Below are positions 3,563 to 43,293 of a stretch of DNA of 44,949 bases, piece after piece. A program made the position numbers and the translations under genes. Below the pieces are notes generated by a model, which saw nothing but the letters and a program-made list of their open reading frames with translations, did not search any database and was not told where the DNA came from. Positions within the stretch are counted from its first letter, which is position 1, and every line of letters starts with the position of its first letter. The DNA comes from a virus. The stretch lies in IMG/VR virus record IMGVR_UViG_3300033049_000035, positions 1-44,949 of that record, one strand, 5' to 3'.

Positions 3563-6500
3563 TTAAGGTGGGTTAATCGTTACGGTTATAGGGTTTGATG
3601 GGCACCCGTCACCAACAAAGTAAACATCGTAGTCACCATCGACTAAGTTATTGAACGTTACTTGGTTCGTTCCACCCAATTCTGGTTGACCATTCAAATA
3701 CCAAGTATAATTATTATATTCGGGGTAAGGTGGGGATGTGGGTAAGGTTATAATAAAACTACCATTGCCTCCACCACCACTTTCATGTGTGATACTTGTG
3801 ACATCTCCATTAACTAATACTGGTGGGTCTTGGTCATATAATATGTAATTATGTACAATTGATTGGCCACCACTATCAGTAATAGTTACAACATATAACC
3901 CATCGACTAATCCCGTATGTGTGAATCCTGTTACATCGTAATTTGCTGGTCCTTCGACAACTACCTGATATGGTGGCGTTCCTCCAGAAGGTGTAATATT
4001 AAGATATCCATTAGCTAAACCTGTACATGTTGGGTTACCAGCTCCGAGTATTACTAATGGCTCTGTCACACCATTAACCCCAAATGTAAGTGCTGGTGGT
4101 TCAGTTATTTCTATTTGACCACAAAGTGATGTTGCACCTAAACTATCTGTTACGGTAACATTATATATTCCTACACCATAACCACCGAATACCTCACTAG
4201 GGCCATTGACATTAGTATAGTTGTCTACAGCCGTTGTGCTCGTATTTTCTATGTCTACAACGAATTGTCCCATACCACCCGTAATAAATACGTTAATAAA
4301 CGCATCATCATTTCCAAATGTTGCAAAACTTCCAGATGTGAAACAATTAAGCACAATTGGGTCTTGTACTACGAACGTTGTCGTTACCGATAGACCACCA
4401 CCATCAGTTACGGTTAAAGTGTACGTTCCACCTATTAAGCCATCAATATCAGGACTGTTAGGGTCTTCAATTATATGGACATCCCCATTAGGGTATGTCC
4501 AAGTGTATGTGAATGGTGCAGTACCACCAACAATTGTAATATCAATTTCACCATCAGGGTTGTTAATATCTATATTATTCTGTACATTACCGATAATAAC
4601 AAAATCTGGTTTATCATCAATTAGACACGGAGCAAAATATTTCTCCTTCATTTTTTGTATTGCGGTAGAAGCCCTATTAAGACCAAAATAAAAATAGAAT
4701 GAATCCTTAGTTTCGTAGCCAGAAGCTTGCTTATACGTTTGCTGATTACTGGTTCCATACCTGAAAATATTATAATCAGTCATACCTATTTGATTACCAC
4801 AGGTTGGGTTACCATTCCAATCAGCATCTACCAACGTTGGGTCAGAATTAGTTGTATTAAGGTCATAATTATTCATCCAAGCAAATATATTTCTACCGAA
4901 TCGATAGTCAATATCGTTATTGGTTAGTTTATGGTCAACAGGTGTTATAGTACCATTTATATCTCTATATTGGTCTAACCCCACACCAAATTCACATTGT
5001 CTCCTTAAATTACCACATTGTTGGGCATATGATTGTTCATAATTAATACAATTTACATCAATAAATAATGAATCTTCTACTAAACTACTGACGCTATCAA
5101 TACCATCCACAAATTCTAAATTCATATTTAAGTTAGTAGGGTCAGGAAAATATTCGGCCAATAATGGTGGCATATTGTAGGTTGTAGTAGGAAATATGTC
5201 GAATACATATGGTAGTCCTTTCCAATGACATTTAACACTAGAGCCTAAAGTCACAATATCGGTAGCCAATATATGTCTACCAATAGTCCTACTATAGGGG
5301 GCATAGTACAATGTACCATCATTCTTTTCTATGATGCCTTCAATCATTCTGTTAGAACTAGTTTGTTTAATACCATGAAGGTTACCACTATCACAGCCCT
5401 CACCACAAGTCCAAATCATATATGTATCATCATAACAGTCATTATCATACGGAATATCTGGATTATTGTTCACACCGCCACCGCCACATGACCACTCACA
5501 AAATCTCTCCTCACCACCATCTTCCACTTCATCTCTATATTTGAATAGTGGTGAATATAAAGCACCATTAACCCAATCATTATAGAAATCAAACTTAAGT
5601 AGATTTTCAGATTCTAATAAACTTAATGCTACGCATTGTGTATAACCTGCATCACCCAATGGTTCGGTCTCATTCCAATCGTTATCAGGGTCTGACCCCA
5701 CACATGCAGTATTACCGTTACCATTACCACCTGCGGCCTCGCAACCCCAGCAATTACCAGTAAGATTAGCATCAGATTGACAATGTAGGCATCCTGGAGC
5801 GAACCTCCTATTATCACACTTAAGCGTCACACAAGATACGTAAGCAATTGAGCTACCGCCAAAAAAATTAATAAAACCATTGATTACGTTAATAATAAAA
5901 TTAATTGGCACGATTATCAATAAGTTAATCATAATAAGAATACCTGCCAACGCCAACACAAGCCCACAAATGAACTGGAATAATGAACTGGATTCAACAT
6001 TTAAATGGTTAAACGGATAGGGGGTATATTTACCTCTAGCACTATCAACATCTTTAATACCAACAAATGTTCTTACCTGATTATTGCTTGGTGTTTGAGT
6101 GTGTTCATATCTAGGTACAAATTGTTTAATCGTGTATATTGTATTCCATTCTAAAGTATGATACTGAGACACATGAGTCTCAGAACCAAAATGGAAATCA
6201 ACTCCAGGACTTCCATTTGGATATTCTGGAGTTGGTGCTCCAACATTTAATTGTTCTGGATTATGTGGCACTAAAAATTTACCCCTAGTTCTTAATCTAC
6301 CTTCACCACCAGTTATATCCATTCCTATTCGGAAACGAACATTTGACTTAGTTGGTAACCCCTTTCTAGGGTCGTCTGACGGCACTAAATCACCATATTC
6401 GTCAGTTATTCTATAATCCAGATTCATTGGAATTTGGTAAGCCCACGTTCCATCTTTATCAATTACTTGTCCACCCTTTACATCATATCGTTCTACGGCA

Positions 6501-11574: not shown

Positions 11575-11708
11575 GATTTCATATTTACATCATCATTATA
11601 CATGTAAATAGTGTGCAATGACATAAAAAGATAAAAAAAATAGGCCACTCATTAATATAATATGTAACTTGTTGATTACAAACTGGTTAGCTCACAACTT
11701 CCGCCACT
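10743..11708 (-). mobile_element. HNH homing element carrying a recoded reductase 3' end (about 966 bp)
   Basis: The proposed element starts at the coding-strand AGTGGCGG at 11708-11701, inside the reductase gene, and ends just before the second AGTGGCGG at 10742-10735. It holds ten reductase codons plus the stop, a 101-base leader and the HNH gene. Removing it and joining TGC (11711-11709) to AGTGGCGGCC (from 10742) restores an uninterrupted reductase frame with both tail cysteines. Both junctions share the 8-base direct repeat AGTGGCGG. A group I intron is an alternative, but the bases at the borders (C before the 5' border, TTT at the 3' end) do not fit the usual U and G. Confidence 0.7.
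11590..11612 (-). repeat. Inverted repeat in the HNH leader
   Basis: Arms ATTTACAT and ATGTAAAT (8 bp, perfect) with a short loop, about 15 bases upstream of the HNH ATG at 11574. There is no T run, so this is not a terminator. It could hide or expose the start region of the endonuclease mRNA, since homing endonuclease expression is often restrained by leader structure; that part is inference. Confidence 0.45.
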
Positions 11709-13895
11709 GCAAGCAACGGCAGAAAATTTGTTAATATCAACGTACTCTGGTTTTATCTTTTCCAAGATAGGAGCAACATCTAAGTTTCTGATTGAGTTAT
11801 TAGTCTTCATCCATTTATGAGCCAAATGTACATCCTTAACGCAGAACGTCAATTCTTGTACATCAGCAAAATGCTTCTTACCGAACTTCTTAGCTTTACT
11901 AATCCAATCTTTCTTCAATAGAACTGATTGTCGCGTACCTTCGATTGGTAATTCATCATTCAACAAATAGTCACATGCTTTCCATAGGTTATTTTCGAAT
12001 AAGTGTAAAGCATCTACAATTAATCCTGAAACAAACATTGAGGCATGGCCATACTTCTCAATAATTTCGTCCACTTCCAACACTTCTGTAAATGGTGCTT
12101 GGTTGAATATTTTATCACCATGATTAGCCATTAAACTAATTCCTGAGAACCATTTCTTATTATCCCAGATATATTCTTTTACTTCTTCCCAATCATCCAC
12201 AGTAATAGTGTTAGATACGTTATGTCTAACTTCTGGAATAATACATAGGTTTTCGTTAGTACCTGTTTCAACCCAATGTTGTTGAACCAATTTAACATAT
12301 TCTAATTGTTTTACACCTAAACAATCCTCTTTAAGTATGGTTTTTTTATCTGCTTTCATCGGTACGAATAATGCATAATCAGCATTAGTTGACGACCATA
12401 CAGATTCCTCAATAAGGTCGGGGTATTTATTGTTTAAATACTGAGCAATCTCCTCTTCCTTATTGATTTGCATGATTCTAAAAGAATTCTTAGAGTGAGC
12501 TGGATGAATACCTGAAGTAGTTTCTAATAGAACTGAGGCATTTCCACTTGGCTTAACACATGTAGTTCTTGCCGCCTTATTAATTCCAATCATCTTAGCA
12601 ACTATTGCATTGATTTCCTTAATCATGTTTGCTCCGTTCTCCAAAATCTCTGGGTCAAATAAAATCTTAGGGTTATTCATGAATCCAGTGATTGAGCAGC
12701 CAATAAGGGCTTCCCTATCACAAATCTCTTTACTCTCTGATGTTAAATATTTGAAGTCCGTGTACGATGCTTGTAGCGTACCAATAAAGGCTGACGCAAC
12801 ACAAGATTTATAGAACGTTTCTTCATCATTACACATACCACCGTTAATTTCAGTTAAGTTACATACTTGCCACCCACTTCTACCATCTTCAGTTCTTGGT
12901 ACCATACCTATCTCTACACATGGATTATACACCACTTCATGTGTTTCAGAGAATACAAAACCTGGCTCTCCGAACTCTTTTGTAGATTTGAAAATGGCAT
13001 CAAATGCCATTTTTTCAATTTCGTCTCTAATAAGGACAACTGAGTTATTAGAACGTGCTCTTTGAGGATTATCTGCCAACCAATTACCTGTCTTAGCATT
13101 CATCATCTCTTTATCATCATGACTGAATAGTGCAATAGTAGCTGAACGTCTAACACCTCCACTAAGAACGGCATCAGAACAATGCATCAACACATCATAA
13201 GCTACAACTGGTCTCCATCGTTTTGGTTCATCCGTAACTACGCTCTCTAGAAGTCTTTCTATTCTCTCAAGAGACTGCTTCAAGCCTTCATGTCCAGGAG
13301 CCTTAAATCCACCTGAAATCAAAGCACCTTTAGGTCTTATTTTAGAGTAGTCAAAGTGAACTACGCTGTTCTCGTACTCTGGAAACGTATGGTCGGTATC
13401 ATAATATGATGATAACAATACGCCAACTGCGTCTGCCCATCCTTCTATAGAGTCCTCAATAACATATGTTTTAGTTCCGTTAGTACGCTTAGAGATTGTA
13501 GGCATTTTTGCCACATGCTCCTTCATAAACGACACTCCAACACCACAACCACATAAAAGCATATACATTCCTTCTTGGAATACTCTGGCTCTATCACAAT
13601 ACGATACCGTACAATTATACATCTTAGCATTATGCTTCATAATTGGCTTCCCACTAAATTGTAGTGAGCGTTGTGATGCTAATACCAATTTATCTTTATA
13701 GGCTTCAACAGCTTCGTCAAAAAAATCCACAAATTGTGGATTAGTAAATGCCTTTTTAAACTTTGGGTTTTGGCGATGCATATCCATCACCATTTCAACC
13801 TTCTCTCCCCATGTCTGTTTTCGTTCAAGTATCTCATTATATTTCGAATAATCGTTATAGAATTTAATATCAGACAGAATCTTTGTTCCTTTCAT
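11676..13895 (-). CDS. nrdJ: Adenosylcobalamin-dependent (class II) ribonucleotide reductase, monomeric RTPR type
   Basis: The enzyme reduces ribonucleotides to deoxyribonucleotides using coenzyme B12 and supplies phage DNA synthesis. The 739-aa length matches the monomeric Lactobacillus enzyme. Visible landmarks are the conserved early cysteine in MYNCTVSYC (about residue 94), GCGVGVSF, LSGGVRRSA, the active-site NPCVEIG (about 327, radical cysteine), CNLTEIN (about 346, partner cysteine) and the PSGNAS loop. The C-terminal redox pair is C-SGGS-C (residues 729 and 734). It is oxygen-independent but needs cobalamin from the host or medium. The last ten codons lie in what looks like an inserted HNH element, and the former tail survives at 10710-10742. 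It sits between gp25 and gp6, among late genes. Confidence 0.95.
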   Translation of the reverse strand: MKGTKILSDIKFYNDYSKYNEILERKQTWGEKVEMVMDMHRQNPKFKKAFTNPQFVDFFDEAVEAYKDKLVLASQRSLQFSGKPIMKHNAKMYNCTVSYCDRARVFQEGMYMLLCGCGVGVSFMKEHVAKMPTISKRTNGTKTYVIEDSIEGWADAVGVLLSSYYDTDHTFPEYENSVVHFDYSKIRPKGALISGGFKAPGHEGLKQSLERIERLLESVVTDEPKRWRPVVAYDVLMHCSDAVLSGGVRRSATIALFSHDDKEMMNAKTGNWLADNPQRARSNNSVVLIRDEIEKMAFDAIFKSTKEFGEPGFVFSETHEVVYNPCVEIGMVPRTEDGRSGWQVCNLTEINGGMCNDEETFYKSCVASAFIGTLQASYTDFKYLTSESKEICDREALIGCSITGFMNNPKILFDPEILENGANMIKEINAIVAKMIGINKAARTTCVKPSGNASVLLETTSGIHPAHSKNSFRIMQINKEEEIAQYLNNKYPDLIEESVWSSTNADYALFVPMKADKKTILKEDCLGVKQLEYVKLVQQHWVETGTNENLCIIPEVRHNVSNTITVDDWEEVKEYIWDNKKWFSGISLMANHGDKIFNQAPFTEVLEVDEIIEKYGHASMFVSGLIVDALHLFENNLWKACDYLLNDELPIEGTRQSVLLKKDWISKAKKFGKKHFADVQELTFCVKDVHLAHKWMKTNNSIRNLDVAPILEKIKPEYVDINKFSAVACSGGSCELTSL

Positions 13896-14428: not shown

Positions 14429-15910
14429 CTAAGAATTGTTATTGGACTCAGTATCAGTTACTTCCTCAGTAAGATTATTTTCAACAATTTTAGTTTCTTC
14501 CTTAGCGGCTTTTTCTGCGGCTCTAGCTTCACGTCTTTTATTAGCTTCATCCAGCACAGCATTTATCATGACTTGCTGATTAGCTTCTTCCACGTCATGT
14601 CTCTCCATAAAGGTCTGAACATCATTCCTTTCAGTTATATCTATTTGAATTGTCGCGTTATTAAACGTACAGTCTGGGAACGTTATACCATCCTTTCCAA
14701 ATCTAGACTTTAGAATCGCCAAAGTTGCAGTATCATTATCCTTTTGTGGCATAGTTTTAGCAACACTTACAATGAAGTGGCCAATCATACCTTTCTTGAT
14801 AGAGCCAGCCATTTGGTCAGCCTCCACTACTTCAGCTTTAATCGAGCTTCTATTACCTTGTATGGCAGTCCACCCCACCATGTCAAAATCTGACAGCATG
14901 GTCTCAAATTGTCTCATAACACTACCTTCACCTATATTAGCGTCAGCATAGTTCTTACTAGGTTGTACACAATCGATATAATCCAACAGAATTACGTCTG
15001 GTCTGAAACCTTGTGATATTTTCTTCTTGATGTATTGTCGTATCTTGGGAATAGTGGTATCATCACTAGAAAATTTAGCCAAACGTATCTCACCCTTTTG
15101 CGCCTCCTTTCGTGCTACCAAGTCAATAATTTCTTCTTTATGATTAGGTAAGTCATTAAGTTCATATCCAGTCCAACAAGAATAGTGTTTACGTTGAATC
15201 ACTTTGGGTAAATCCTCAAAAAATATTTGAAGCACATTTAAGTCTTGCTCCATTGCCGTATTCGCAATTTTCGTAAGAAAAGTGGTTTTACCTACACCGA
15301 ATGGTGCCAATATAATACCAAGTTCTGCTCGGCCTAATCCACCATTCATAAGGTCATCTAATCCTTTGATACCTGTCGGTACTGGTTGCCTAAAGTCGTC
15401 AGCTAATACAGCCTCCACATTGGAGGTGACACTAATGTCTAAGTCCCCATTAGAACCTGCTTGTAACGCCTTCTGAATGATTTCCACACACTCTTCATAA
15501 GAATCTAAGTCCCCAACGTCAATAATCCTCTGTATCTCTCTTACGGACTTACTAAGCTCTTGCTGTTTACAGAACTTCATAGCTTCCTCTTGAATGAAGG
15601 TAGCGTCATTTGTATTTACATCTTGAACTCTAGTTATCTCCGCGATAGCGAATTTACGTGTAGTTTCACTCTTAATATTAGCGGAAGCTCTAGCTTTTAA
15701 ACTTTCAAAATCTGGGATAGCTTCATGTTTCTCATATGCATTCTTGATGATTACCATGACATTTCTTAGATGTTCCGTACTAAAATAGTTCGGGTCTAAA
15801 ATCTCAATAATGGTCTCGGCATATTTCCTATCAACCAAAATTTGGTTGAGTAGTCTCCTCTGGTAATCTATATCAAGATAACCAAAGTCTGTGTTGTTGT
15901 TGCCACCCAT
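14429..15910 (-). CDS. 41: Replicative DNA helicase, T4 gp41/DnaB-like
   Basis: A hexameric 5'-3' helicase for the phage replisome. The N-terminal all-helical domain (YQRRLLNQILVDRKY, FSTEHLRNVM) is followed by a RecA-type motor. Visible motor elements are the gp41-style TGIKGLDDLMNGGLGR, Walker A APFGVGKTT at residues 202-210, Walker B ILLDYID at about 300, and a sensor-like AIQGNRSS. The C-terminus is a long charged tail (KRREARAAEKAAKEE) ending in Asn/Ser. Length of 493 aa is close to T4 gp41 (475). It is separated from the 172-aa unknown gene by three bases and belongs to the block gp32 - uvsX - RNase H - unknown - gp41. No primase or clamp-loader gene is in the window. Confidence 0.93.
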   Translation of the reverse strand: MGGNNNTDFGYLDIDYQRRLLNQILVDRKYAETIIEILDPNYFSTEHLRNVMVIIKNAYEKHEAIPDFESLKARASANIKSETTRKFAIAEITRVQDVNTNDATFIQEEAMKFCKQQELSKSVREIQRIIDVGDLDSYEECVEIIQKALQAGSNGDLDISVTSNVEAVLADDFRQPVPTGIKGLDDLMNGGLGRAELGIILAPFGVGKTTFLTKIANTAMEQDLNVLQIFFEDLPKVIQRKHYSCWTGYELNDLPNHKEEIIDLVARKEAQKGEIRLAKFSSDDTTIPKIRQYIKKKISQGFRPDVILLDYIDCVQPSKNYADANIGEGSVMRQFETMLSDFDMVGWTAIQGNRSSIKAEVVEADQMAGSIKKGMIGHFIVSVAKTMPQKDNDTATLAILKSRFGKDGITFPDCTFNNATIQIDITERNDVQTFMERHDVEEANQQVMINAVLDEANKRREARAAEKAAKEETKIVENNLTEEVTDTESNNNS

Positions 15911-17513: not shown

Positions 17514-18662
17514 TTAAACATCTTCGTCTTGTATTTCAATCATTACATTCTCCTCAAAATCTGGGTCTTGGTCTGGAGCCTCAATAGTATTGAACGTTAA
17601 TTCAGCATCAGAACCTACCCCCAATAATTTTTGGAAGTACGCTTTGTTCTCAATCTTATATTTTGCCAAATCGTCTGGATGAACAAACCCATGAGGCGTA
17701 GAGCAAATAGTGGCTTTCTTATTAGAAACACCATTGATTTGATTCTTAATAACCTCAATAGCAGTTTCAACGCCAAAATTCATAACTTGACCATCTGCTT
17801 GGACTTCTTTTCTCTTCGCACTTGAAGTGGTTTTACCGCCAGTGTGTACGATAAATCGATTGTAGAATCTCCATGCTTCTCCACCTGCTTGTTTCACAAT
17901 TGGGTGCATGTTTGAATTATCTAACCATACCTTATTTACTGAGGTTATACTCATATTATAAGGAAAATCAATTCTTCTTGTTCTTGTAATTTTCTTGAAA
18001 AATGATTGGAATGCTCTCTTCATAATACCTGCATTCCATTGGTTATTGCCAACCTTAGACATTACACTGGCAAAGCAATCTACGGTTCCTACTGAATCCC
18101 ATACGAACAATATGTCTCGTTCCAATTCCCCTAATAATACCTTATCTGCGAAGTCATTGAATAGTCTCGCAACATCTTCAATGACGGCAACCGTTCTCAA
18201 TGGCTTAGTAGTCATCTTACCTGCTTTATAATCGAACTTCTCATACATAGAAACTAAATCATAATCTTGGAAGAATAAAAAGTCTCCTTTAATATCCTCT
18301 TCTCCATTAGCATTAATAAACTCTTCAAATTCAATACCAACACTTTTAGCGTAATCCCATGACCAGTTTCCTTCCGTATCAACAATAATTGGGAATGTAC
18401 CGACCTTTTGCGCAGCTACTACAGCTTCGTACATTGCGGTAGACTTACCTGTATCACTAAACCCAATAAATTGAGAACCGAACCCAATTGGTATTCCTGG
18501 TACTCCTAATGCTTTATTATACCCATCTGAGAACTTAAGCCAAGTAATTGGCTTCATTTTCTGTGATGTTTCATCAATACCCATTTCTTTCTTAAAGGTG
18601 GTTGGGTCGTAAGGGTTTTTTTTAGTCTTCTTAGTTGCGTTTTTTTTAGTTGGTCTAGCCAT
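17514..18662 (-). CDS. uvsX: UvsX-like RecA family recombinase
   Basis: Strand-exchange protein for recombination-dependent replication and repair. A basic Lys-rich start (MARPTKKNATKKTKKNP) precedes the RecA core: Walker A GFSDTGKST at residues 67-75, the conserved VDTEGNWSWDYAKSVG, and Walker B FVWDSVGTVD at about 180. The end is acidic (PDQDPDFEENVMIEIQDEDV), as in T4 UvsX. The 382-aa length agrees with T4 UvsX (391). A terminator lies between the gp32-like gene and this one, so expression may depend on read-through. No motif of the TATCTTTG or ATATTTATA type was found in the 70-base gap. Confidence 0.94.
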   Translation of the reverse strand: MARPTKKNATKKTKKNPYDPTTFKKEMGIDETSQKMKPITWLKFSDGYNKALGVPGIPIGFGSQFIGFSDTGKSTAMYEAVVAAQKVGTFPIIVDTEGNWSWDYAKSVGIEFEEFINANGEEDIKGDFLFFQDYDLVSMYEKFDYKAGKMTTKPLRTVAVIEDVARLFNDFADKVLLGELERDILFVWDSVGTVDCFASVMSKVGNNQWNAGIMKRAFQSFFKKITRTRRIDFPYNMSITSVNKVWLDNSNMHPIVKQAGGEAWRFYNRFIVHTGGKTTSSAKRKEVQADGQVMNFGVETAIEVIKNQINGVSNKKATICSTPHGFVHPDDLAKYKIENKAYFQKLLGVGSDAELTFNTIEAPDQDPDFEENVMIEIQDEDV

Positions 18663-18732: not shown

Positions 18733-19680
18733 TTAGAATGGTAGGTCATCGTCCACGATTGTTGTTGTTGTTGATGTAGGAGCCTCTACGGTTGCTACTG
18801 GTGCAGCTTCTGTTTTAGTTTCCGTTGCCGTACTAGGTGCCACTAATGTGTTTGGTACTACCAAATCATCGTTTGCGTTACCGCCTACTGTCAGCTCAGA
18901 TTCTAATCCAGCATTGTTGTTAGCTACTGGTCGTTCTTCCATAGTATTCTTGTCTACCCACTTTGAGGCTTCTTTGTCATAATATGGTATTCCACCTCTA
19001 ACAACGATTTCAAGATATTCATAAGTTCTTATACTATAAACATCTCTCCATGTCTTCTTATCGCCCAACCAAAGTGTCTTAAGGTCAGCGTTTTCAGTAA
19101 TTACACTTTCAGTCAACGGAACTACTCCTTGAACAGTTGGGAATCCTTTGTCGTTTCTTGCGATGTTGACAATTAAATCCATTCCTGTATCAGGATTTGC
19201 GATGTCTCTCTTCAACGCTTTATATAGGCTGTAGATTTTATCGTAAGTACCTTCTTTCTTGTAGTTTTCAGCGAATCTCCAGAACTTAGGTCCATCTTGC
19301 TCGTTCTCTCTGTCAATAACTTTCGTTACGAAGAATTTACGAGAGTTATACTGCTTCGCTTTTTCCTTGTCGGTGTCTTTTCCAGTCTTAAGTAAGATTG
19401 CTCTTGCCTCGCAGAATGGACAGTCGTCTTCCTCATCATTATACTTCAAGCAAGGGAAGGTTTTCCATTGGTTGTCTAGTTTGAAACGATGACCATGCAT
19501 GATTGCAAATGGTGTTGATTCTCCTTCAAGTGCTGGAAGAATTCTAATAGTCTTCTCACCTGAGTCGATACCGTCTTTAAGATGTGTTGTGAAATAATTT
19601 TTCAGGTCGTACTTGTTGTTTGACCTTGGCTTAGTAGTCTCGTCATACTGAGCCAATAATGCTTCTAATTGTTTATCCAT
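18733..19680 (-). CDS. 32: Single-stranded DNA-binding protein, T4 gp32-like, with bacterial SSB-type C-terminal tip
   Basis: Cooperative ssDNA-binding protein of the replisome. The zinc site is seen as H64, C77, C87 and C90 (HGHRF, FPCLKY, CPFC). These are, as I recall, the same residue numbers as in T4 gp32. The N-terminal basic segment (KYDLKNYFTTHLKDG) precedes an OB-fold core with IRILPALEG, YNSRKFFVTKV and LYKALKRDI. The C-terminal third is Thr/Ala-rich and disordered and ends DDDLPF. That ending is close to the bacterial SSB tip (DDDIPF) rather than the T4 gp32 ending. Length of 315 aa equals T4 (301) within reason. It has an own promoter (19839-19869), a repeat-bearing leader and a terminator. 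Confidence 0.94.
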   Translation of the reverse strand: MDKQLEALLAQYDETTKPRSNNKYDLKNYFTTHLKDGIDSGEKTIRILPALEGESTPFAIMHGHRFKLDNQWKTFPCLKYNDEEDDCPFCEARAILLKTGKDTDKEKAKQYNSRKFFVTKVIDRENEQDGPKFWRFAENYKKEGTYDKIYSLYKALKRDIANPDTGMDLIVNIARNDKGFPTVQGVVPLTESVITENADLKTLWLGDKKTWRDVYSIRTYEYLEIVVRGGIPYYDKEASKWVDKNTMEERPVANNNAGLESELTVGGNANDDLVVPNTLVAPSTATETKTEAAPVATVEAPTSTTTTIVDDDLPF

Positions 19681-32840: not shown

Positions 32841-35336
32841 TTACATAGGGTTAGGATTTAATTTTCCACCACCAATATCAATTCTGAGCTGCTCTTGTAT
32901 TAACTTTGTGATTTCTCGTATAAAGAAAGGGTCTTTGGCCAAATCAATATTCATATTGTCTCCATTAGGAATGTCAACTTGTATCTTACCTTCAATTTTT
33001 AACTTTCCGAATTCAATTTTCCCAGAGGTAGAACCACCATCTTTAGACGTCTTGACTATATCGTCAATCTTTCCCTTATCGGTAGAGGCTACTAACCCAT
33101 CATTCATTTGTAAGAACTTATCTTGGGGGTTGAATTTTATTATACCATCATTCATGATGTTAGCACCAACATCACCTACTTTATCTCCAATAAAATCCCC
33201 ACCAAGTCCACCTAAAATACCACCAATAATACCACCAATTACGGTACCTACTACGGGAACTACACTACCTATTGCTGCACCTGCGGCAGCACCACCCCAA
33301 GCACCTAAACCAGCGCCAGCACTTCTAGCTACAGTCCTTCCAACATTTTCACCATCACTCATTCCAGCGTCAGCGTTAGTTGTCCATTCATTATACCCAC
33401 TCAAACCAGCAGAGAGTACTCCACCTCCAATAGCCCCACCACCTTTAAGGTTCTTGGCCATATTTTTCCCCATTCCAAGTTTACTTGCCATACCTTTACC
33501 TACACCAGTAGCGCCATTAGGCATCATACCCCCACCTCCACCTGTAACGGTATTAAACCCCATACCAAGCATTTGTCCGTTGGCGAACCATTTACCAGCA
33601 TTGAAGAAAATAGTACCCCCAGCCGCAATAGCTAACGATAGTTTAGGGAATTCTAGTACGAATCCACCAACAGCGCCAATAAATTTACCAATACTCTCAC
33701 CTAAATCCCTAACATTATCTAAGAATTCCGACCCCTTCATTTGTTCTTGGAATTGAATCATAGGTTGAACTAGCCCAGTATTTAATGCCTCTATGAATGG
33801 TAGTGCAATCGTTTTAAATTGCATCAGTAAATTGTCAAACGATTGGTCGAATGTTTGTGATTGTTCAGCTCTATCTTTAAGTGATTTTTGTTCTCTACGA
33901 TATGTCGCCATATCAGCCGCCTTCATATCGCTCAATAATTGTTTCTTACCGTCAAATGTTACCATCCATTCGCCAGAATCTTTGTCGAAATTAGCCATAT
34001 GTGCAATCATCTCTCGGTCTTCATCTTCAACTTTGAAATTGACTTGACCTTTCAACATATTAAACTTAGCTGATTGCTTCGCCATCTCTGCCATATTCTC
34101 AGCACCGACACCCGTAATCTCGCCAATCTCTTTAATTCTATCTAATTGTAGTCCAGTGATATCAAATTCGCCAGTTTTCTTATTAAATTGAGCAAACTCA
34201 GCCGTAGCGTCACCCATATCCTTAGCAAAACCTTCAAAGTCATTTCTAGCCTTGAACATTAAAACAAACGGGTCACCTAATTTGGCCATGTCACCACCCA
34301 TAGTAGCTAATCTAGCGGCCATCTCAACAGCACCTTCAGGTCTGAAAGCTTTATCAGCCATATTAGCTACACCTTCCATATCCATCTTTATTAGTGCGGC
34401 ATATGAAGCCATAGAAGCCATACCTTTCACCCCACCTTTAAAGTGATATTTTTGAGCTAATTTAAGTGTCTTACCTAACTCCTTAATCGCACTGTTTGCA
34501 TTAACCCCCATCTTGTGGGCTATATCAACAGTTTCTTGTATACCATCTCTAGAAGCTTCAACACTAAGTCCAAAATTTTCCATAGCGGCAGCCATGCCTA
34601 CAGCACCGTCCATACCAAGCATAGTACCTTTACCGATTTCTGCCATCGCTTGAAGCTCATCTTCACTCATGATTAATCCACGACCAATTTCATCAGCATA
34701 TCCTCTTTGAGCTATTGCTAAATCACTCACGCTAACACCAAGTTGTTGGGTAGATTGAGACGCATTCATCATATTTTTACCGAAGAACTTAGATTGGTTC
34801 GAAAGGATACCCATAGAAAGCTCTGCCTTCTTAATTTCCTTGGACATCTCAAGGGCTTCAAATCCTTTAACCCAACCGTAGAATTTCTCTGCTAATCCTG
34901 GGAGATTATTCCATACTTGACCCATTTGATTATAGGCAAGTGTCATACCATTAGCTTGGTTGGCTATCTGTGTTTGTGTTGCTAAAGTTGCTTGTGCTGT
35001 TACTAAATTAGTTGCCGTAGCTGCCGCCAATGCTTGGGTTGCAGTTAATTGACCTTCTAATGCGTTACGCCTAGCAATTGCAGTGGTTAAGGCTGCACCA
35101 GTTAACCCATGCTCCTCATCAATTAATGTTTTACGTTGTTCTGTGAGCGTATTTATTTGCTCGGCAAGTTTTATTTCTTGGTCTTTAAGATGCTTTATTC
35201 GGGCTTGTTCTTGACCAATAGCCTTAATACCTTGAAGATACCCTGAGACGCTTTTTTCCATCTTAGCAGTTTGCTCGGCATTCTCCTTGACAATACGACC
35301 AATTTCCCTTAATTCCTCTTTACTATACTTAGCCAT
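32841..35336 (-). CDS. Tail length tape measure protein, 831 aa
   Basis: Sets tail length and is held inside the tube. An N-terminal coiled coil (about 1-130: NAEQTAKMEKSVSGYLQG, LKDQEIKLAEQINTLTEQRKTLID) and Ala/Thr-rich helices precede a long helical middle of the phage tape-measure type, with repeated GMDGAVGMAAAMENFG-like elements. There is a hydrophobic helix at about 575 (GGFVLEFPKLSLAIAAGGTIFF) and a glycine-zipper membrane-active segment at about 680-720 (GAGLGAWGGAAAGAAIG, GTVIGGIIGGILGGLGG). By the usual rule of about 0.15 nm per residue the tail would be near 125 nm. It starts one base overlapping the 429-aa gene (TAATG) and follows the chaperone pair, the normal gene order. Confidence 0.9.
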   Translation of the reverse strand: MAKYSKEELREIGRIVKENAEQTAKMEKSVSGYLQGIKAIGQEQARIKHLKDQEIKLAEQINTLTEQRKTLIDEEHGLTGAALTTAIARRNALEGQLTATQALAAATATNLVTAQATLATQTQIANQANGMTLAYNQMGQVWNNLPGLAEKFYGWVKGFEALEMSKEIKKAELSMGILSNQSKFFGKNMMNASQSTQQLGVSVSDLAIAQRGYADEIGRGLIMSEDELQAMAEIGKGTMLGMDGAVGMAAAMENFGLSVEASRDGIQETVDIAHKMGVNANSAIKELGKTLKLAQKYHFKGGVKGMASMASYAALIKMDMEGVANMADKAFRPEGAVEMAARLATMGGDMAKLGDPFVLMFKARNDFEGFAKDMGDATAEFAQFNKKTGEFDITGLQLDRIKEIGEITGVGAENMAEMAKQSAKFNMLKGQVNFKVEDEDREMIAHMANFDKDSGEWMVTFDGKKQLLSDMKAADMATYRREQKSLKDRAEQSQTFDQSFDNLLMQFKTIALPFIEALNTGLVQPMIQFQEQMKGSEFLDNVRDLGESIGKFIGAVGGFVLEFPKLSLAIAAGGTIFFNAGKWFANGQMLGMGFNTVTGGGGGMMPNGATGVGKGMASKLGMGKNMAKNLKGGGAIGGGVLSAGLSGYNEWTTNADAGMSDGENVGRTVARSAGAGLGAWGGAAAGAAIGSVVPVVGTVIGGIIGGILGGLGGDFIGDKVGDVGANIMNDGIIKFNPQDKFLQMNDGLVASTDKGKIDDIVKTSKDGGSTSGKIEFGKLKIEGKIQVDIPNGDNMNIDLAKDPFFIREITKLIQEQLRIDIGGGKLNPNPM

Positions 35337-36668: not shown

Positions 36669-37010
36669 TTAGTTTTGTCCACGAATCATATTACCTAATT
36701 TAGAATTTGGATTCTTTAACTCGGCTTTAAGCATATCGCCACCTACAGATGAAGTTCTTTCTCCCTTACTATTAGTCATAGAATTCTTATGCTGCTCTTC
36801 TTCAATATGCTCTCTTTTAGCACTTTGTTCATTGGTAAGTAGTGTCAATTGGTGACGTCTAGTACTAGTTTTCATAGCCATTACATCCTCCATGGTAAAT
36901 CCTATGTGCTTAACGCACACGTACATCTCTTCCTCGAACCATTTCTGGTATTCAGATGTCAGGCCAAAAAAACTTGAGGTTAAGGGGAAGAAACGTGGTG
37001 ACGGACTCAC
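36669..37010 (-). CDS. Downstream frame of tail assembly chaperone (GT-like extension), reached by frameshift
   Basis: The open frame begins after a TGA at about 37024 and offers only CTG or GTG (37010) as starts, within the end of the 335-aa gene. A start there would give an odd leader (SPSPRFFPLTSSFF). From FFGLTSEYQKWFEEEMYV onward the sequence is protein-like: helical, then KTSTRRHQLTLLTNE and a polar tail ending GNMIRGQN. It lies +1 relative to the upstream frame and becomes accessible at the seven-T run at 36966-36972. It is therefore best read as the C-terminal extension (about 98 residues) of a frameshifted chaperone of about 430 residues, the T part of a G/GT pair. Confidence 0.72.
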   Translation of the reverse strand: MSPSPRFFPLTSSFFGLTSEYQKWFEEEMYVCVKHIGFTMEDVMAMKTSTRRHQLTLLTNEQSAKREHIEEEQHKNSMTNSKGERTSSVGGDMLKAELKNPNSKLGNMIRGQN

Positions 37011-37959
37011 CCCCAGCCGCCTTCACCTCTATTTTAAGGTCAATTCCCGATTCAATTTCATCGATATAAGCTCGAAATGCTTTAATATCGGTTAATCTCA
37101 TATTACTAATATAATCACTTAACCATAATGAATCATCATTACCATCAACAGATTTAATTTGTCTACTAAGAGTTAATGTTGACCTATTATTAATTTCTAT
37201 ACCAGCCTCTTGTTCATCAGACAACGTATTTTCTATAAAACTCTCATCTCCAACCGTTAAAAACTTGAACTTTAGTACGTTACCACTTTTAGGGCATGTG
37301 AACTCAAATAATCCATTTTCGTCTGGTTCAGCTCCAAGAGGAATATATTTCAATTCTGAAAGGTCAACAGTTTCTTCAATTATTTCACCAGTCTTACTCC
37401 AAACAGAAACTGGATACATATTACCAAATGCTGTACCTCTAAGCCAAATCATTATTGCATTCCTATCACCTAAGTGAAGGTCATTATAATTGAAGTTCGG
37501 CTCCAATATGTTTCTAGTCATTAGAATTTCTAAGAAATCACCGCTCTCAATCAAGTTAGGTGATGTAAGTATATTTTCATCTGAACCAGTCATATAGGAA
37601 ACTTTAATTTTATCCTTAAGCCCTTTATATAGTTTTCCCTTTGAGGGTAAAGGAATAAGGTCAAATGGTGAATTCCACTTTGGAGTCATCAAACTACCAT
37701 GTTTTGCTGCCAAGTCTGGGGCGTAAGCCGTTCCAGCCAATGGTGACACTGGTTGCGTTGATGCTACTGCCTCAATCGGTGCAGCTTGAAACTGTTCATT
37801 TTGTTTATTCATTTCTTCCATCTGTATACGGGTATCTTCAATCATTTTTTTGGCTGCAATCATTTCTTCATTTGAAATTCCTGATGCATGTTTTGTAGAC
37901 ACTTCCGCTTCTGCTTGTCCTCCCCCTTTAGGGAAAACTGTTGGTTTTTTTTCTGACAT
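36952..37959 (-). CDS. Tail assembly chaperone (G-like; similar to T4-type baseplate protein gp26 family), 335 aa
   Basis: The first 100 residues are polar and disordered with a coiled stretch (MIAAKKMIEDTRIQMEEMNKQNEQ). The folded part begins FDLIPLPSKGKLYKGLKDKIKV, a start typical of small baseplate/tail proteins of T4-like marine phages (T4 gp26-like family, by memory), and continues YMTGSDENIL, LHLGDRNAIMIWLRGTAFG and FEFTCPKSGNVLKFKFL. The frame ends LKFFWPDI-stop; the overlapping +1 frame continues for 98 codons. Gene order tube - G - G/T - tape measure matches the universal tail chaperone arrangement. A 16-base palindrome (ATTAAAACGTTTTAAT, 37961-37976) lies just before the ATG. Confidence 0.78.
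   Translation of the reverse strand: MSEKKPTVFPKGGGQAEAEVSTKHASGISNEEMIAAKKMIEDTRIQMEEMNKQNEQFQAAPIEAVASTQPVSPLAGTAYAPDLAAKHGSLMTPKWNSPFDLIPLPSKGKLYKGLKDKIKVSYMTGSDENILTSPNLIESGDFLEILMTRNILEPNFNYNDLHLGDRNAIMIWLRGTAFGNMYPVSVWSKTGEIIEETVDLSELKYIPLGAEPDENGLFEFTCPKSGNVLKFKFLTVGDESFIENTLSDEQEAGIEINNRSTLTLSRQIKSVDGNDDSLWLSDYISNMRLTDIKAFRAYIDEIESGIDLKIEVKAAGGESVTTFLPLNLKFFWPDI
36966..36972 (-). other. Programmed frameshift site: run of seven T on the coding strand
   Basis: Coding strand CTC AAG TTT TTT TGG CCT GAC ATC TGA. The zero frame stops four codons after the run. Moving +1 (or -2) on the run gives TTT GGC CTG ACA TCT GAA and opens the 98-codon extension; -1 meets TGA at once. Mu-type phages use -2 and some Listeria phages +1 in the same gene pair, so either direction has precedent. 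Confidence 0.72.
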
Positions 37960-38421: not shown

Positions 38422-39315
38422 CTATATTAACTCTTTTAATTTAATAATTACGTCATTTAGATTATTTTTAATATCGTACTCCCAAAATCTCAGAAGTGTT
38501 ATATTATTATTATCTTCGCACCATTTTGTCTTAATTTTATCCTTATCTAGGTTCTTGAATTGACACTCATATTTCGGTTCTTTGAACTCGGTAACGGGAT
38601 TACAGTGCCAGAAATCCCCATCAACCTCAATTAAAGTATTGGTAGAATATATTTTAAAATCATAATAGGACTTTATTTCTCGGACATAATGTTGTCGTTC
38701 ATAATCTAAACCCTCAACTAACCCTAATGTAATTAATGTACTATTAATAGTTTCTTCTAATTTAGACGTCACCGTGAAATCGTTATCTCTCATCCACACC
38801 ATTCGCCTATGACTTTGTTTTTCCCTCTCCTTTGGGTCTGACCACCTTATTTTTGCCGTTTCGGATAACTTACGTTTATGGTCATCGGATTTCTCGACAC
38901 CGCTTAGAGCCTTAGAGATATTATCACCCCTTTCTGGATTGGATAACATTTTTTCTACATTATTCTTAACTCTGGGGTCTGAGATGTCCAAACCCTTATT
39001 CCAAATAGTAAGCTCTCCCGATTTGTACATTTTCTTCTGGGTTTCGTGCGATTTACGAATGGCTTCTGAATTATGCCCCCAGTTATTATTCACCCTAGAG
39101 GCGTGACCCCTAATATAATCCCTATACCCAGCTTTAATACCCAAATATTTGGTTTCGCCACCGCACCCACATTTACAGGTAGGTTTAATACCATCCAACA
39201 CATAATCAATATATGTGTCTTCGGCTGATACGTTGTGTTTTAATGCTCGATGTCTCCTAACCGAATCTACACTTTTGAATGTCTTATCACATTCCTTACA
39301 TTTAATATTTTCCAT
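38422..39315 (-). CDS. Vsr-like (PD-(D/E)XK, EDxHD-type) homing endonuclease with zinc finger and NUMOD-like modules, 297 aa
   Basis: Residues 5-27 are a C2H2-type zinc finger (CKECDKTF, HRALKH). CKCGCGGETKY follows. The middle carries helix repeats of the NUMOD3 type: SEAIRKSHETQKKMYKSGEL, NISKALSGVEKSDDHKRKLS and AKIRWSDPKEREKQS. The C-terminal nuclease domain (about 185-297) resembles the very-short-patch-repair fold: YYDFKIYSTNTLIEVDGDFWH, then KTKWCEDNNITLLRFWEYDI in pattern. This is the architecture of Vsr-derived free-standing homing endonucleases. It sits between the tube gene and the tail chaperones, with its own host-type promoter and terminator, so it is an independent mobile unit in the tail operon. 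Confidence 0.87.
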   Translation of the reverse strand: MENIKCKECDKTFKSVDSVRRHRALKHNVSAEDTYIDYVLDGIKPTCKCGCGGETKYLGIKAGYRDYIRGHASRVNNNWGHNSEAIRKSHETQKKMYKSGELTIWNKGLDISDPRVKNNVEKMLSNPERGDNISKALSGVEKSDDHKRKLSETAKIRWSDPKEREKQSHRRMVWMRDNDFTVTSKLEETINSTLITLGLVEGLDYERQHYVREIKSYYDFKIYSTNTLIEVDGDFWHCNPVTEFKEPKYECQFKNLDKDKIKTKWCEDNNNITLLRFWEYDIKNNLNDVIIKLKELI

Positions 39316-39380: not shown

Positions 39381-39419
39381 GATAGAGCTATACTTCTAAA
39401 AGAGAAGTATAGCTCTATC
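39381..39419 (-). other. Perfect 17-bp hairpin enclosing the tube protein stop codon
   Basis: Arms GATAGAGCTATACTTCT (39381-39397) and AGAAGTATAGCTCTATC (39403-39419) with a five-base loop. The stop codon TAG at 39398-39396 straddles loop and stem. No T run follows, so it is not a classic terminator. It may protect the tube mRNA 3' end or limit read-through into the endonuclease gene. Confidence 0.75.
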
Positions 39420-39884
39420 GAATCGTAGTGTAGTAGTAATATCTGCAATAGCATCATCATCCATACTAAGGTCACCGAAGTTTACATTGGTAAGCATAGT
39501 TCCTTGAAGAACCCACTTCTCAATTACAACACCTGACGGGTCAAGCATTTCTAATTCAATATCTTTCTTGTAACCAGCAGCATAACCTTGTCTTCCTGTA
39601 ACAGATTCAGATTGTAATCTAACCCATTCCATAATAGCTTGAGCTGAGGAAGGACCTATAGCATCTCTAAAGGTAACGTCAATTGATTCCCAAACAAAAC
39701 GACCAATAACCCATGTTGACGTATTCAAGAATGGAATTTCAACTTCGTTCTGTGTAATTGATGGTCGTGAAGATGATGCTAACCACCACTCTTGGATACC
39801 CAATTCTGATGGAAATCGAAGCATCCATCTATTCTTTTTCTTTGGCTCGTAAGGTACGGGCATTTTCATCAGCAAATCAGCCAT
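39396..39884 (-). CDS. 19: Tail tube protein, T4 gp19-like
   Basis: The 162-aa length matches T4 gp19 (163). The N-terminus KKNRWMLRFPSELGIQEWWLASSSRPS is characteristic of gp19-like tubes of T4-related marine phages, continuing PFLNTSTWVIGRFVWESIDVTFRDAIGPSSAQAIMEWVR in pattern. C-terminal strands (WVLQGTMLTNVNFGDLSMDD, TTTLRFDRAILL) complete the tube fold. Hexameric rings of this protein form the inner tube ejected through the contracting sheath. The last codons form a perfect hairpin with the 3' flank. An ATATTTATA motif is 39 bases before the ATG. Confidence 0.95.
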   Translation of the reverse strand: MADLLMKMPVPYEPKKKNRWMLRFPSELGIQEWWLASSSRPSITQNEVEIPFLNTSTWVIGRFVWESIDVTFRDAIGPSSAQAIMEWVRLQSESVTGRQGYAAGYKKDIELEMLDPSGVVIEKWVLQGTMLTNVNFGDLSMDDDAIADITTTLRFDRAILLF

Positions 39885-40425: not shown

Positions 40426-43293
40426 TTAAATATCATCGAAAGATGCACCTGTGTTCATGATGTTGAACTCAACACAAATGAACTCCAATGCTCTCGTAGG
40501 CTTGATGAAGATTCGTCCACAAAGCTCATTACGGTCTCTTGATTCTGGAGTATCATCCAACTCAACTCGGAAATCAGAAAGTCCCCTCTCAGACCTGATA
40601 TTATCCAAAATAGGATTTACCAGACCAAGGAATTGGTTTCTAACGATATCATCGTTTTGTTCGAATAGTAATCTAATAGATACCGCAGATATTAGTTTTC
40701 TAGCTTGTAGTAACAACCTTCTTACATTAATTCTATCAAGTGCTGATTCTTTAACTTGAAGTGTTTTATTACCCCAAATCTTAATACCGTCAGATGCGAA
40801 TGTTGTAACTGGGTTAATTCGTCCAGCATAAAGAGTGTCTCTATCCTGTAATGTCAACTTAGCCCTAGCCTTGATAGCATCTACGTTACCTCTTTGGATA
40901 CCTGCAACAGCATACCAAGGGAATGCGATGTTGTCGGTCAAGGCGATATTTCGTACTACGTCTCTAGTTACTGGTAAATAAATATAAACATTGTTCTCGG
41001 CATCATTAACTTGAACCCATGGGAAGTAAGTTGCAGTATAACTACTGTCAAATTGGTCTTCTAAAGTCTCAACCACTTCTTCTGCCGTTAATACTAATCC
41101 ACTTGAATCAACATCTGGTGTTGTAACAATATATAGCGAGTCAGCTCTGTCTTGTTCAATCATTTCGATAGTTTCTTCAACCAAGTTGGTATTTTCAAAA
41201 TCGTCAATACCTGGAGTTGCAAACACGTTAATGTTAACAGATTCTGGGTTATTGAATGTCCAAATACCTTCTAAGTAAGCGTAGTAGTCAGATGTAATAC
41301 CATTATCACCGTTAGTCAAAGCTCTATTGGTAAAAGCTCCACTTAGTAGACCTTCAGCTCCTTTGGTACCATTGATACGGTAATTATCTTTATTGGTTCG
41401 TCTATCTCTGTATACATCCCATCCATCATATCCACCGTATGGTGCAAGTGTGAATTTACGAGCGTAAATCTTTTCATAAGCCGTTCCCTCAATATCAGAA
41501 TCCGTTTGGAATGGGCAACACCCTGTATCAAATAGGAATACTGGTGAATATGTATCACCTGAAGAGTTATAAATAACTTCTACACCATCGATAGTGGCTC
41601 CCGTAGCAGCAATATCCATATGGAAACCTTTAGTAATACCAGTCCACATTGCAAGGTCTCCGTCATTAGGAAGTCCCTTATAGTCAAAGAAATCTTGGTC
41701 GATTCCAACGATATTAGAAAGACCTAAATATGCTTTTCTCTTATTCTCAAATGTACCGTATGTTTGCTTGTAGCAAATGTCTGGGAATGTCACACCAGTA
41801 TTAGATACTTGGTGATAATCTCTTTGTGGTACTCCTATGAACCCTGCTGGGAACGTATCACTAGTATCTGAAGTATCATCCAATTCAACTAAAATGTAAC
41901 TAGATTTAGAAGCGAAGTTACCGTCAAGTGTACCGATTCTCTTAGCTATGTAGTTGTTTGAGGTTGGGTCCATCACTAATCGTGAGTACTTCTCAAGTAC
42001 AACTTTGTTGGCGTCAGTATCGTAGAAGCTTCTAACTTCGATATCAAATTCTTTATCGTCTGGCTTAATGTTTGTGATAGAAATCTTAATTGTTCTATTA
42101 GCTGCATCACCATCAGAAATCGTCCAAAGTCTAAACAATCTTAGAAGGTTTGTACCACGAAGTTCTGATACAATATATGGCGTAACCGCAGGTGTATATT
42201 CTTCCAAATAATCTTCAAATGGAACACCAATAGTATAATCAATAAGTGTAAGGTTAATACCGTAAATCTTATCATCATCCACATGCTTATCCATCATATT
42301 TTGGTAAAGTTCCTCTACGTATAGTGCAGTCTTACCATCTTTTTCAGTTCTACCCAATACTTTAGGTAAATAATTTCTCTTTGTTTTATCAAATGAACAA
42401 TTGTAGCTGAATGTACCTAATGTTCTGGCGTTACCTGTAAGAGAGAAATTACCTAATGGGTCACTTGCTGCATCTATTGGTGTTGCACCAAATACCACAT
42501 AGTCATCAACTGTATCAGTTGCTCCTGTTACTTCGAATAAAATATTCTCATAGGACTCGTACTCTCCTCTAGAACGTAACAATGCTACAATCTTATCATC
42601 AACGTCTGTGTACGATGTACCTGTACAAGAAGTAGTTACACCAGAAGTATAACCAGTTGTTGCACCTGAACCTACTATGTTAGTAACATATAGGTTAAAG
42701 GAAGCACCAATAAAAGTATTTCCTACCTTCACATATGTACAAGCAATGCTTGCAGTTGCGCCTGTAGCCGCACTTGAAAGGAATGAAAGGTTTGAAGTCA
42801 ATTGCCCATCAGTAATCAAAGCTTGAACCACTGGGTCAGGGCTTGTATACGCCAACGTCCCACCAGTTGATACTGTGTACTCAATAAGTGGGTCAGATGA
42901 AAATCCTGTGTAAGTTGTACCTGAAGCGGTAACAACGGTACTAGGGTCTAACGCGGCATCTAATGTTATACCCCAAGCTTCACCAGCATCATATCCAGAA
43001 AAACCAAGAATCCTAGTTACAAATAATTGATTTGATTGTGATAGATACGATTTTGCTATGTATGGTAGCTCGTATTTTGGGTAACCAGTATCTTTGAACT
43101 TGGTAGCATTAAGGCCACCGAAGAACGTTTTGAATTCATCGTAATTTGTTACGAATACTGGTTGAAAGGCAGGTCCTTGGGTTGTTTCTCCCACCAAACC
43201 TAGTGTTGTTACACCTACTTGTCGTGTAACAAAGATTAAATCTCTCTCGGAGGTATATACTCCTGGACTAACGAATACTCTATTTTCAGCCAT
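40426..43293 (-). CDS. 18: Tail sheath protein, T4 gp18-like, 955 aa
   Basis: Contractile sheath subunit. The N-terminus FVSPGVYTSERDLIFVTRQVGVTTLGLVGET in pattern and the following QPVFVTNYDEFKTFFGG are diagnostic for gp18. The C-terminal domain is equally clear: GINPVTTFASDGIKIWGNKTL-type motif (seen as NPVTTFASDGIKIWG), VRRLLLQARKLISAVS, RNQFLGLVNPILDNIRSERG and RVELDD. At 955 aa it is much longer than T4 gp18 (659). The excess lies in a Ser/Thr/Gly-rich middle (about 110-240, with ATGATASIAC and VTTSCTGTSY), probably outward-facing domains on the tail surface. A 26-base palindrome and an ATATTTATT motif lie upstream, a terminator downstream. Confidence 0.96.
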   Translation of the reverse strand: MAENRVFVSPGVYTSERDLIFVTRQVGVTTLGLVGETTQGPAFQPVFVTNYDEFKTFFGGLNATKFKDTGYPKYELPYIAKSYLSQSNQLFVTRILGFSGYDAGEAWGITLDAALDPSTVVTASGTTYTGFSSDPLIEYTVSTGGTLAYTSPDPVVQALITDGQLTSNLSFLSSAATGATASIACTYVKVGNTFIGASFNLYVTNIVGSGATTGYTSGVTTSCTGTSYTDVDDKIVALLRSRGEYESYENILFEVTGATDTVDDYVVFGATPIDAASDPLGNFSLTGNARTLGTFSYNCSFDKTKRNYLPKVLGRTEKDGKTALYVEELYQNMMDKHVDDDKIYGINLTLIDYTIGVPFEDYLEEYTPAVTPYIVSELRGTNLLRLFRLWTISDGDAANRTIKISITNIKPDDKEFDIEVRSFYDTDANKVVLEKYSRLVMDPTSNNYIAKRIGTLDGNFASKSSYILVELDDTSDTSDTFPAGFIGVPQRDYHQVSNTGVTFPDICYKQTYGTFENKRKAYLGLSNIVGIDQDFFDYKGLPNDGDLAMWTGITKGFHMDIAATGATIDGVEVIYNSSGDTYSPVFLFDTGCCPFQTDSDIEGTAYEKIYARKFTLAPYGGYDGWDVYRDRRTNKDNYRINGTKGAEGLLSGAFTNRALTNGDNGITSDYYAYLEGIWTFNNPESVNINVFATPGIDDFENTNLVEETIEMIEQDRADSLYIVTTPDVDSSGLVLTAEEVVETLEDQFDSSYTATYFPWVQVNDAENNVYIYLPVTRDVVRNIALTDNIAFPWYAVAGIQRGNVDAIKARAKLTLQDRDTLYAGRINPVTTFASDGIKIWGNKTLQVKESALDRINVRRLLLQARKLISAVSIRLLFEQNDDIVRNQFLGLVNPILDNIRSERGLSDFRVELDDTPESRDRNELCGRIFIKPTRALEFICVEFNIMNTGASFDDI

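Follow-up and report, generated by a model that had tools for sequence, protein, structure and literature searches.

Does the tail assembly chaperone gene of an environmental T4-related phage give a second, longer product by ribosomal frameshifting, and if it does, in which direction do the ribosomes slip? The question arises from a locus in IMG/VR record IMGVR_UViG_3300033049_000035, whose 44,949 nucleotides are analysed here in full (the window). At this locus, a gene of 335 codons ends just past a run of seven Ts, and another frame carries on for a further 98 codons. A sequence-only reading had proposed a programmed +1 or −2 frameshift in a tail assembly chaperone. We conclude that a short and a long chaperone are most probably made by a +1 slip at the T run, with a probability of roughly 0.84. 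What the sequences themselves hold is both frames, their conservation, the site, the avoidance of a −1 heptamer, and the homology to gp26 and gp51 of T4.

Reading frames at the chaperone locus

The features of the locus are as follows.

36952..37959, minus strand: frame-0 ORF of 335 aa, identified from sequence and family profiles as the short form (TAC-N, lambda G-like), with the T4 gp26-type domain of baseplate hub and tail assembly chaperone proteins (PF12322)
36962..36975, minus strand: putative shift site AAG_TTT_TTT_TGG_CC (seven Ts at 36972-36966, AAG at 36975-36973)
36952..36954, minus strand: frame-0 stop TGA, four sense codons beyond two Phe codons
36669..36965, minus strand: +1-frame extension of 98 codons and a stop, which would give the long form (TAC-NC) its T-like domain, with homology to the C-terminal part of T4 gp51
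37008..37010, minus strand: GTG, in frame and upstream of the site, a candidate start for a separate 113-aa product that we judge unlikely

On its own strand, the 335-aa ORF ends with CTC AAG TTT TTT TGG CCT GAC ATC TGA, where TGG CCT GAC ATC are the sense codons between TTT TTT and the frame-0 stop. Re-reading the sequence showed that the earlier description of a gene stopping four codons past a seven-T run is right, as are its coordinates. The +1 frame begins directly after the seven Ts (GGC CTG ACA TCT GAA TAC CAG and onward) and is open from 36965 to 36672, with a stop at 36671-36669. The −1 frame at the site (GTT TTT TTG GCC TGA) closes at once, as had been noted before, and without an open −1 frame the locus is not a canonical −1 site of the form X_XXY_YYZ. 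We therefore rejected a −1 shift in the window, both because this frame is closed and because the −1 heptamer is avoided in the clade (discussed below).

In the mechanism that we propose, the majority of ribosomes would terminate at the TGA and release the short form (TAC-N, gp26-like). In a minority, with UGG next in the A site, the P-site tRNA-Phe paired to the second UUU would slip from UUU to UUU, one base forward. These ribosomes would then read GGC CUG ACA UCU and make the long form (TAC-NC, gp51-like), which would carry a mostly helical C-terminal domain of about 98 residues. Lambda G and GT suggest the function by analogy: the tape measure protein would be coated by the short and the long form alike, and the added domain would bring in tube subunits. 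(The slippage itself, its efficiency, and the role in assembly are what we infer.)

Genomic neighbourhood

Three other tail genes could be recognized near the locus.

39396..39884, minus strand: tail tube protein, gp19-like (phrog_4542, tail tube, 1.8e-28)
40426..43293, minus strand: tail sheath protein (phrog_23, tail sheath, 2e-56)
32841..35336, minus strand: probable tape measure protein (phrog_794, tail length tape measure, 6.9e-10, residues 528-722)

The two frames were said to sit between tube and tape measure. They do lie between these genes and on the same strand, but they adjoin neither: toward the tube gene there are a homing-endonuclease-like ORF and a 91-aa ORF, and toward the tape measure gene an ORF of 429 aa. 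The order tube, chaperone, tape measure is direct in Listeria phage LIS04 and nearly direct in Bacillus phage SP-15.

The ORF of 297 aa between the tail tube and tail chaperone genes (38422-39315, minus strand) carries a C2H2-like finger at its N-terminus and matches families of phage HNH/homing endonucleases (phrog_559 at 3.3e-7 and phrog_9084 at 1.1e-6). By these matches, it is probably a free-standing homing endonuclease. The rest of the 45-kb contig is poorly annotated apart from T4-type replication genes, all on the minus strand: a gp32-like ssDNA-binding protein (18733-19680), a RecA-like protein (17514-18662), and a DnaB-like helicase (14429-15910). A 739-aa ORF (11676-13895, minus strand) weakly resembles ribonucleotide reductase, with matches of 1.7e-4 to the B12-dependent insertion domain and 1.2e-3 to the barrel domain.

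Identity of the short form and of the extension

The 335-aa protein of the window matches PF12322 with E = 2.6e-4 and 21.2 bits, which is below the cut-off of 24.5. Of the 58 members of the family alignment, 50 match PF12322 (best 5e-20) and 56 match phrog_150 ("baseplate hub"). T4 gp26 and gp51 both match PF12322 as well. These matches support the earlier identification of the gene as a tail assembly chaperone related to gp26.

The short form and the +1 extension were modelled as separate parts. The AlphaFold2 model of the short form has a mean pLDDT of 85.6, and a Foldseek search of the PDB with this model gave no significant match. When the model was re-aligned to 991 PDB chains preselected by Foldseek, the top two were the HK97 tail assembly chaperone (2ob9, Z 5.8) and YqbN (3klu, Z 4.9), neither of them with a significant Foldseek E-value. 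The structural alignment with the HK97 chaperone is suggestive but weak. The HK97 chaperone aligns to residues 93-178 of the model and YqbN to residues 214-301, hinting that the T4-type short form may contain two chaperone-like units in tandem.

The model of the +1 extension is a helical unit over the first 68 residues, with pLDDT of about 95-98 for residues 1-60. Profile methods were required to place this domain: tblastn against phages with the +1 domain alone found no match, and the window's own +1 domain has no direct match among the phrogs. An HMM of the +1 domains of 65 relatives, built without the window sequence, recovers the window domain at 1.2e-9, the −1 domain of S-PM2 at 3.5e-6, and that of phiM12 at 3e-4. 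Profile-profile comparison of the +1 domain with the −1-frame domain of the cyanophages and phiM12 gives a probability of 95.5%, and an HMM of the cyanophage domain matches the C-terminal end of T4 gp51 (5.8e-6). Direct matches to phrog_634, "baseplate hub assembly catalyst", were obtained with four of the +1 domains, the strongest at 3.5e-7; T4 gp51 (1.2e-23) and the S-PM2 extension match this family too. A structure search of BFVD with the T-like domain returned weak matches only, among them P-HM1 Gp51, the ZZ1 baseplate hub assembly catalyst, and several tail assembly chaperones. By profile comparison, then, the extensions of the +1 lineages are homologous to those of the −1 lineages, and both are gp51-like.

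From the family matches, the gp51-related extension, and the sheath, tube, and tape-measure neighbours, with the suggestive but weak alignment to the HK97 chaperone and YqbN, we identify the locus by homology as the tail assembly chaperone gene of a T4-related myophage, of G/GT type and within the gp26/gp51 family.

Conservation among relatives

One relative (L002, 74% identical) keeps the site, the stop, and both frames almost letter for letter. More distant relatives found by a DNA-pattern scan (L003-L006, L009, and L010, about 28-31% identical) keep AAGTTTTTTTGGCCT.ACCTCTGAGTATCA. A profile scan of IMG/VR found at least 577 relatives among the first 600 matches listed, and we kept 80: 75 with an open +1 frame, four cut by the contig end, and one deviant (L037, discussed below). 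Thus, where the contig reaches far enough, the +1 frame stays open for at least 55 codons past the site in 75 of 76 relatives, nearly always at TTTTTTTGGCC; the proteins are mostly 30-45% identical. The site is TTTTTTTGG in 66 of the 80 relatives and TTTTTTTA[CT] in a further nine. The frame-0 stop lies two or four codons past an FF[WY]P motif in most of them.

The +1 layout also occurs in isolates: Flavobacterium phage immuto, Microcystis phage Mel-JY01, Bacillus phage SP-15, Listeria phage LIS04, Streptococcus phage GXN1, Streptomyces phages BRock and LuckySocke, and Rhodothermus phage RM378. On a comparison that spans about 240 relatives, the slip device is deeply conserved, and its direction (forward in the window, backward in marine T4-like and jumbo relatives) goes with where the T run falls in the reading frame. 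The sequence-only reading had called for a comparison of homologues, and the T run and the overlap of the frames do prove to be conserved. The retention of the +1 frame is far more than chance would give and also bears out the view that its 98 codons encode genuine protein, and the conservation of frames and site together supports a programmed frameshift in the chaperone gene.

Two relatives have other layouts. In L042 (about 3690-3900), the frame-0 ORF ends early, and the last part of the short form (PLNYQFF) lies in the +1 frame together with the extension (FFGITPEYK); there, the frame change must lie farther upstream, or else the contig has an indel. In L015 (LR756511.1, a 595-kb phage; about 4780-5052), the frame-0 protein extends well beyond FFFP and is overlapped by a 90-codon frame compatible with a −1 shift.

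The public records of seven isolates (L098, L100, L105, L102, L103, L106, and L013) list the extension as a separate short hypothetical protein, and in LIS04 (L099) and GXN1 (L016) it is absent from the annotation. None of the annotated isolate records that we examined joins the extension to the upstream gene.

Putative slip site and direction of the shift

To describe the site, we used 70 non-redundant loci, thinned to below 80% DNA identity. The core TTTTTTTGGCC is almost fixed and the flanking bases vary; a seven-T run followed by GGCC, ACCC, or ATCC is present in 65 of the 70. The two Phe codons at the site are TTT in 67/69 and 66/68 cases, as compared to 79% elsewhere in these genes. The base just before the run is T in only 2 of 70 loci, as compared to 38% for third-position T generally. 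Among two-fold degenerate codons before the run, the ratio of T to C is 2:30 against a background of 2594:799 (P = 6e-17, Fisher's exact test, which overstates the number of independent events because the loci share ancestry; the direction of the bias is near-total). A T at this position would create U_UUU_UUU, the classic −1 heptamer, and we therefore conclude that the −1 heptamer is avoided in the +1 clade.

In the IMG/VR clade, the codon in the A site is TGG or TAY. Re-pairing of the P-site tRNA after a +1 slip is full at codon positions 1-2 in 66 of the 70 non-redundant sites, and two CTT_T sites could use a slip of the prfB type. As stimulators, neither RNA structure nor a Shine-Dalgarno element stands out. 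There was no conserved RNA structure near the site (mean z of −0.4 downstream and −1.1 upstream, without a consistent signal), and we dropped this candidate; no Shine-Dalgarno-type stimulator was evident in the aligned upstream positions.

Alternative explanations

Phage Mu uses a −2 ribosomal shift. A similar shift here would enter the same frame with one additional Phe (KFFFG), and it is the best of the alternatives, although we consider it improbable. A run of seven Ts lets the P-site tRNA re-pair at −2 just as it does at +1 (both are allowed at 65 of 70 sites), and in the window genome itself, a −2 shift, like RNA polymerase slippage on the seven Ts, would lead to nearly the same protein. 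The relatives distinguish the two directions. In L077 (TTC_TTT_TGG), GXN1 (TTC_TTT_CGT), BRock, LuckySocke, and LR756508, +1 re-pairing is possible and −2 re-pairing would be mismatched in codon positions 1-2, yet the +1 arrangement is kept. At the TTT_CTT_TGG sites of immuto, L056, and L069, re-pairing is imperfect in both directions, but the +1 slip would be the known prfB-type slip on CUU_U. With the codon before it, the immuto site is AGC_TTT_CTT_TGG. The sequence-only reading had left +1 and −2 side by side; because −2 re-pairing fails in five lineages that keep the +1 arrangement, we prefer +1.

A second possibility, somewhat less probable still, is that RNA polymerase slips on the seven Ts and yields mixed mRNAs with one U fewer or two more. 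This would fit the conservation of the seven-T run in most relatives. However, there is no long run in immuto, L056, L069, GXN1, BRock, and LuckySocke (longest run of 3) or in L077 (4), and the frame arrangement is kept in all of these, so the broken runs in several lineages argue against polymerase slippage. Also, polymerase slippage should tolerate longer runs, whereas a T that would extend the run at its 5' end is strongly avoided. Finally, the codon register of the run, which should be irrelevant to the polymerase, tracks the frame that is required.

Third, the downstream frame could be a gene in its own right, with the 113-aa ORF translated from its own GTG at 37010 or by termination and reinitiation near the stop. 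We regard this as very unlikely. The absence of a good start had been claimed for the downstream frame, and this holds for the family better than for the window: in 44 of 80 relatives, the +1 frame upstream of the site (from the last +1-frame stop) contains no ATG, GTG, or TTG, and in 75 of 80 it contains no ATG, but the window does have the GTG at 37010-37008, and L002 has one at the same place. Several database entries for isolates do present the downstream piece as a separate small protein. The conserved GLTPEY motif follows the shift site without a gap, so that a later start would truncate the domain, and T4 has the same two parts as one chain, gp51.

Last, the gene could really be a single frame, broken by a mistake in sequencing or assembly or by an inactivating indel of recent date. 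Homopolymers are classic places for errors, but we rejected this reading as practically excluded because the homologues share the layout, both in 75 of 76 environmental contigs and in the isolates immuto, Mel-JY01, SP-15, LIS04, RM378, and BRock, several of which have no long homopolymer.

A +1 slip by the P-site tRNA at the seven-T run is thus our preferred explanation for the overlapping frames.

Relatives with the extension in the −1 frame

Homologous loci would shift in the other direction. We compared 80 cyanophage-type and 80 jumbo-phage loci, and 158 of these 160 have an open −1 frame at the same Phe-Phe. All 80 cyanophage-type loci have NNT_TTT_TTC, and in 78 of them the −1 frame is open over an extended stretch. 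All 80 jumbo-phage loci have an open −1 frame, mostly at NNT_TTT_TT[CT]. Isolates with the −1 layout include S-PM2, HTVC008M, phiM12, CBB, Atu_ph07, and Paride. In S-PM2 the site is CAG_TCT_TTT_TTC_GCA. The base before the run is thus of opposite kind in +1 and −1 loci, and the T run sits in whichever codon register suits the frame required.

The sole frame exception within the +1 clade is L037 (site near 3455-3485). Its T run is lost, the site reads gcA_AAT_TTC_TTC_TGG, which contains the canonical −1 heptamer A_AAT_TTC, and the extension is in the −1 frame. From its sequence, L037 is a candidate for a natural reversal of the direction of the shift.

An unrooted tree of 84 short forms, from which the shift site was left out, can be explained with no more than two sign changes, one at a deep split of the −1 from the +1 lineages and the other in L037. 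T4 gp26 and gp51 cluster beside the cyanophage −1 lineage (SH-aLRT 90 and 95). Because gp26 and gp51 group together, the tree is consistent with loss of slippage in T4 through gene duplication. The C-terminus of T4 gp26 is KEFFELL, with the Phe-Phe still there. Exact placements in the tree are unsafe because the branches of T4 gp51, RM378, and RAS14 are long.

We consider the following history probable, if less so than the +1 slip itself. The tail chaperones of the T4 superfamily would have had one ancestral Phe-Phe slip site. A single reversal of sign, far back in the tree, would have come about when the T run moved by one base in codon register (NNT_TTT_TTC for −1 and NNV_TTT_TTT_T for +1). 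Synonymous codons beside the run would actively suppress slipping the other way. A return to −1, through a new canonical heptamer, has apparently taken place in at least one environmental lineage (L037), and T4 would have dropped slippage by duplication.

Comparison with known systems

Frameshifted tail chaperones, of which lambda G and GT are the model (Xu, Hendrix and Duda 2004), are covered in the review PMC5009743, which describes G-T frameshifting as conserved in long-tailed phages except T4. In lambda and most other G/GT systems the shift is −1, whereas in the window clade it would be +1, at UUU_UUU_U. T4 gp26 and gp51 belong to the same family as the window's short form (PF12322, phrog_150) and share the C-terminal domain of its extension (phrog_634). 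In T4, the short and long forms come from two genes, 26 and 51, without a frameshift, as the sequence-only reading had noted; in the window, both would come from one locus.

That reading also saw in the locus a link between T4-type and lambda-type tail assembly. The link had already been drawn by Vladimirov, Gautam and Davidson 2022 (Virology 566:9): according to PMC10885494, they reported that T4-like phages have such chaperones, some with a separate short gene and a fused long gene. PMC12846349 credits Vladimirov 2022 with polyT −1 signals in the chaperone genes of T4-like phages.

Other +1 sites offer mechanistic parallels. For HF1-like haloviruses, a +1 shift has been proposed at TTT_CGC in a tail chaperone pair (PMC7230728), and HSTV-2 is mentioned in PMC5009743. 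These, too, are myovirus chaperone pairs that need +1, with the class of site seen in BRock and GXN1, but they belong to archaeal viruses and are likened here by site class and not by protein homology. At the CUU_UGA site of prfB (PMC5009743) and the UUU_CGN sites of influenza PA-X and the amalgaviruses (Firth 2012 and Nibert 2016, as cited in PMC7230728), as would be the case in the window, the P-site tRNA slips +1 onto an overlapping codon. The difference is that prfB requires a stop codon and an internal Shine-Dalgarno sequence, whereas the window clade has a sense codon in the A site (TGG or TAY) and no evident Shine-Dalgarno-like element.

G/GT chaperones and T4-type chaperones were thus known before. 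In the open-access literature, which was the scope of our search (subscription papers lay outside it), we found no description of a +1 class at TTT_TTT_T[GA], of its insulation from −1 by heptamer avoidance, or of a deep switch in sign.

Our comparison suggests that +1 slippage is how the tail chaperone is produced in a very large group of environmental myophages, and that current annotation splits or misses the long form, with its C-terminal half listed as a separate "hypothetical protein" or omitted in isolates. Beyond what was first claimed for the locus, the most interesting part is that homologous slip sites of opposite sign are told apart by the register of the run and by synonymous codon choice. 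In the cyanophage-type phages (S-PM2, HTVC008M), phiM12, and the jumbo phages, pairs of gp26/gp51 type with homologous domains shift at the same Phe-Phe, but by −1 on T_TTT_TT[CT], where the T run lies one base earlier relative to the codons than in the window clade. With the same residues, a similar T run, opposite sign, and a different codon register, these sites are a natural experiment on the direction of slipping, and the locus fills the gap between the one-locus G/GT system of the lambda type and the two genes of T4.
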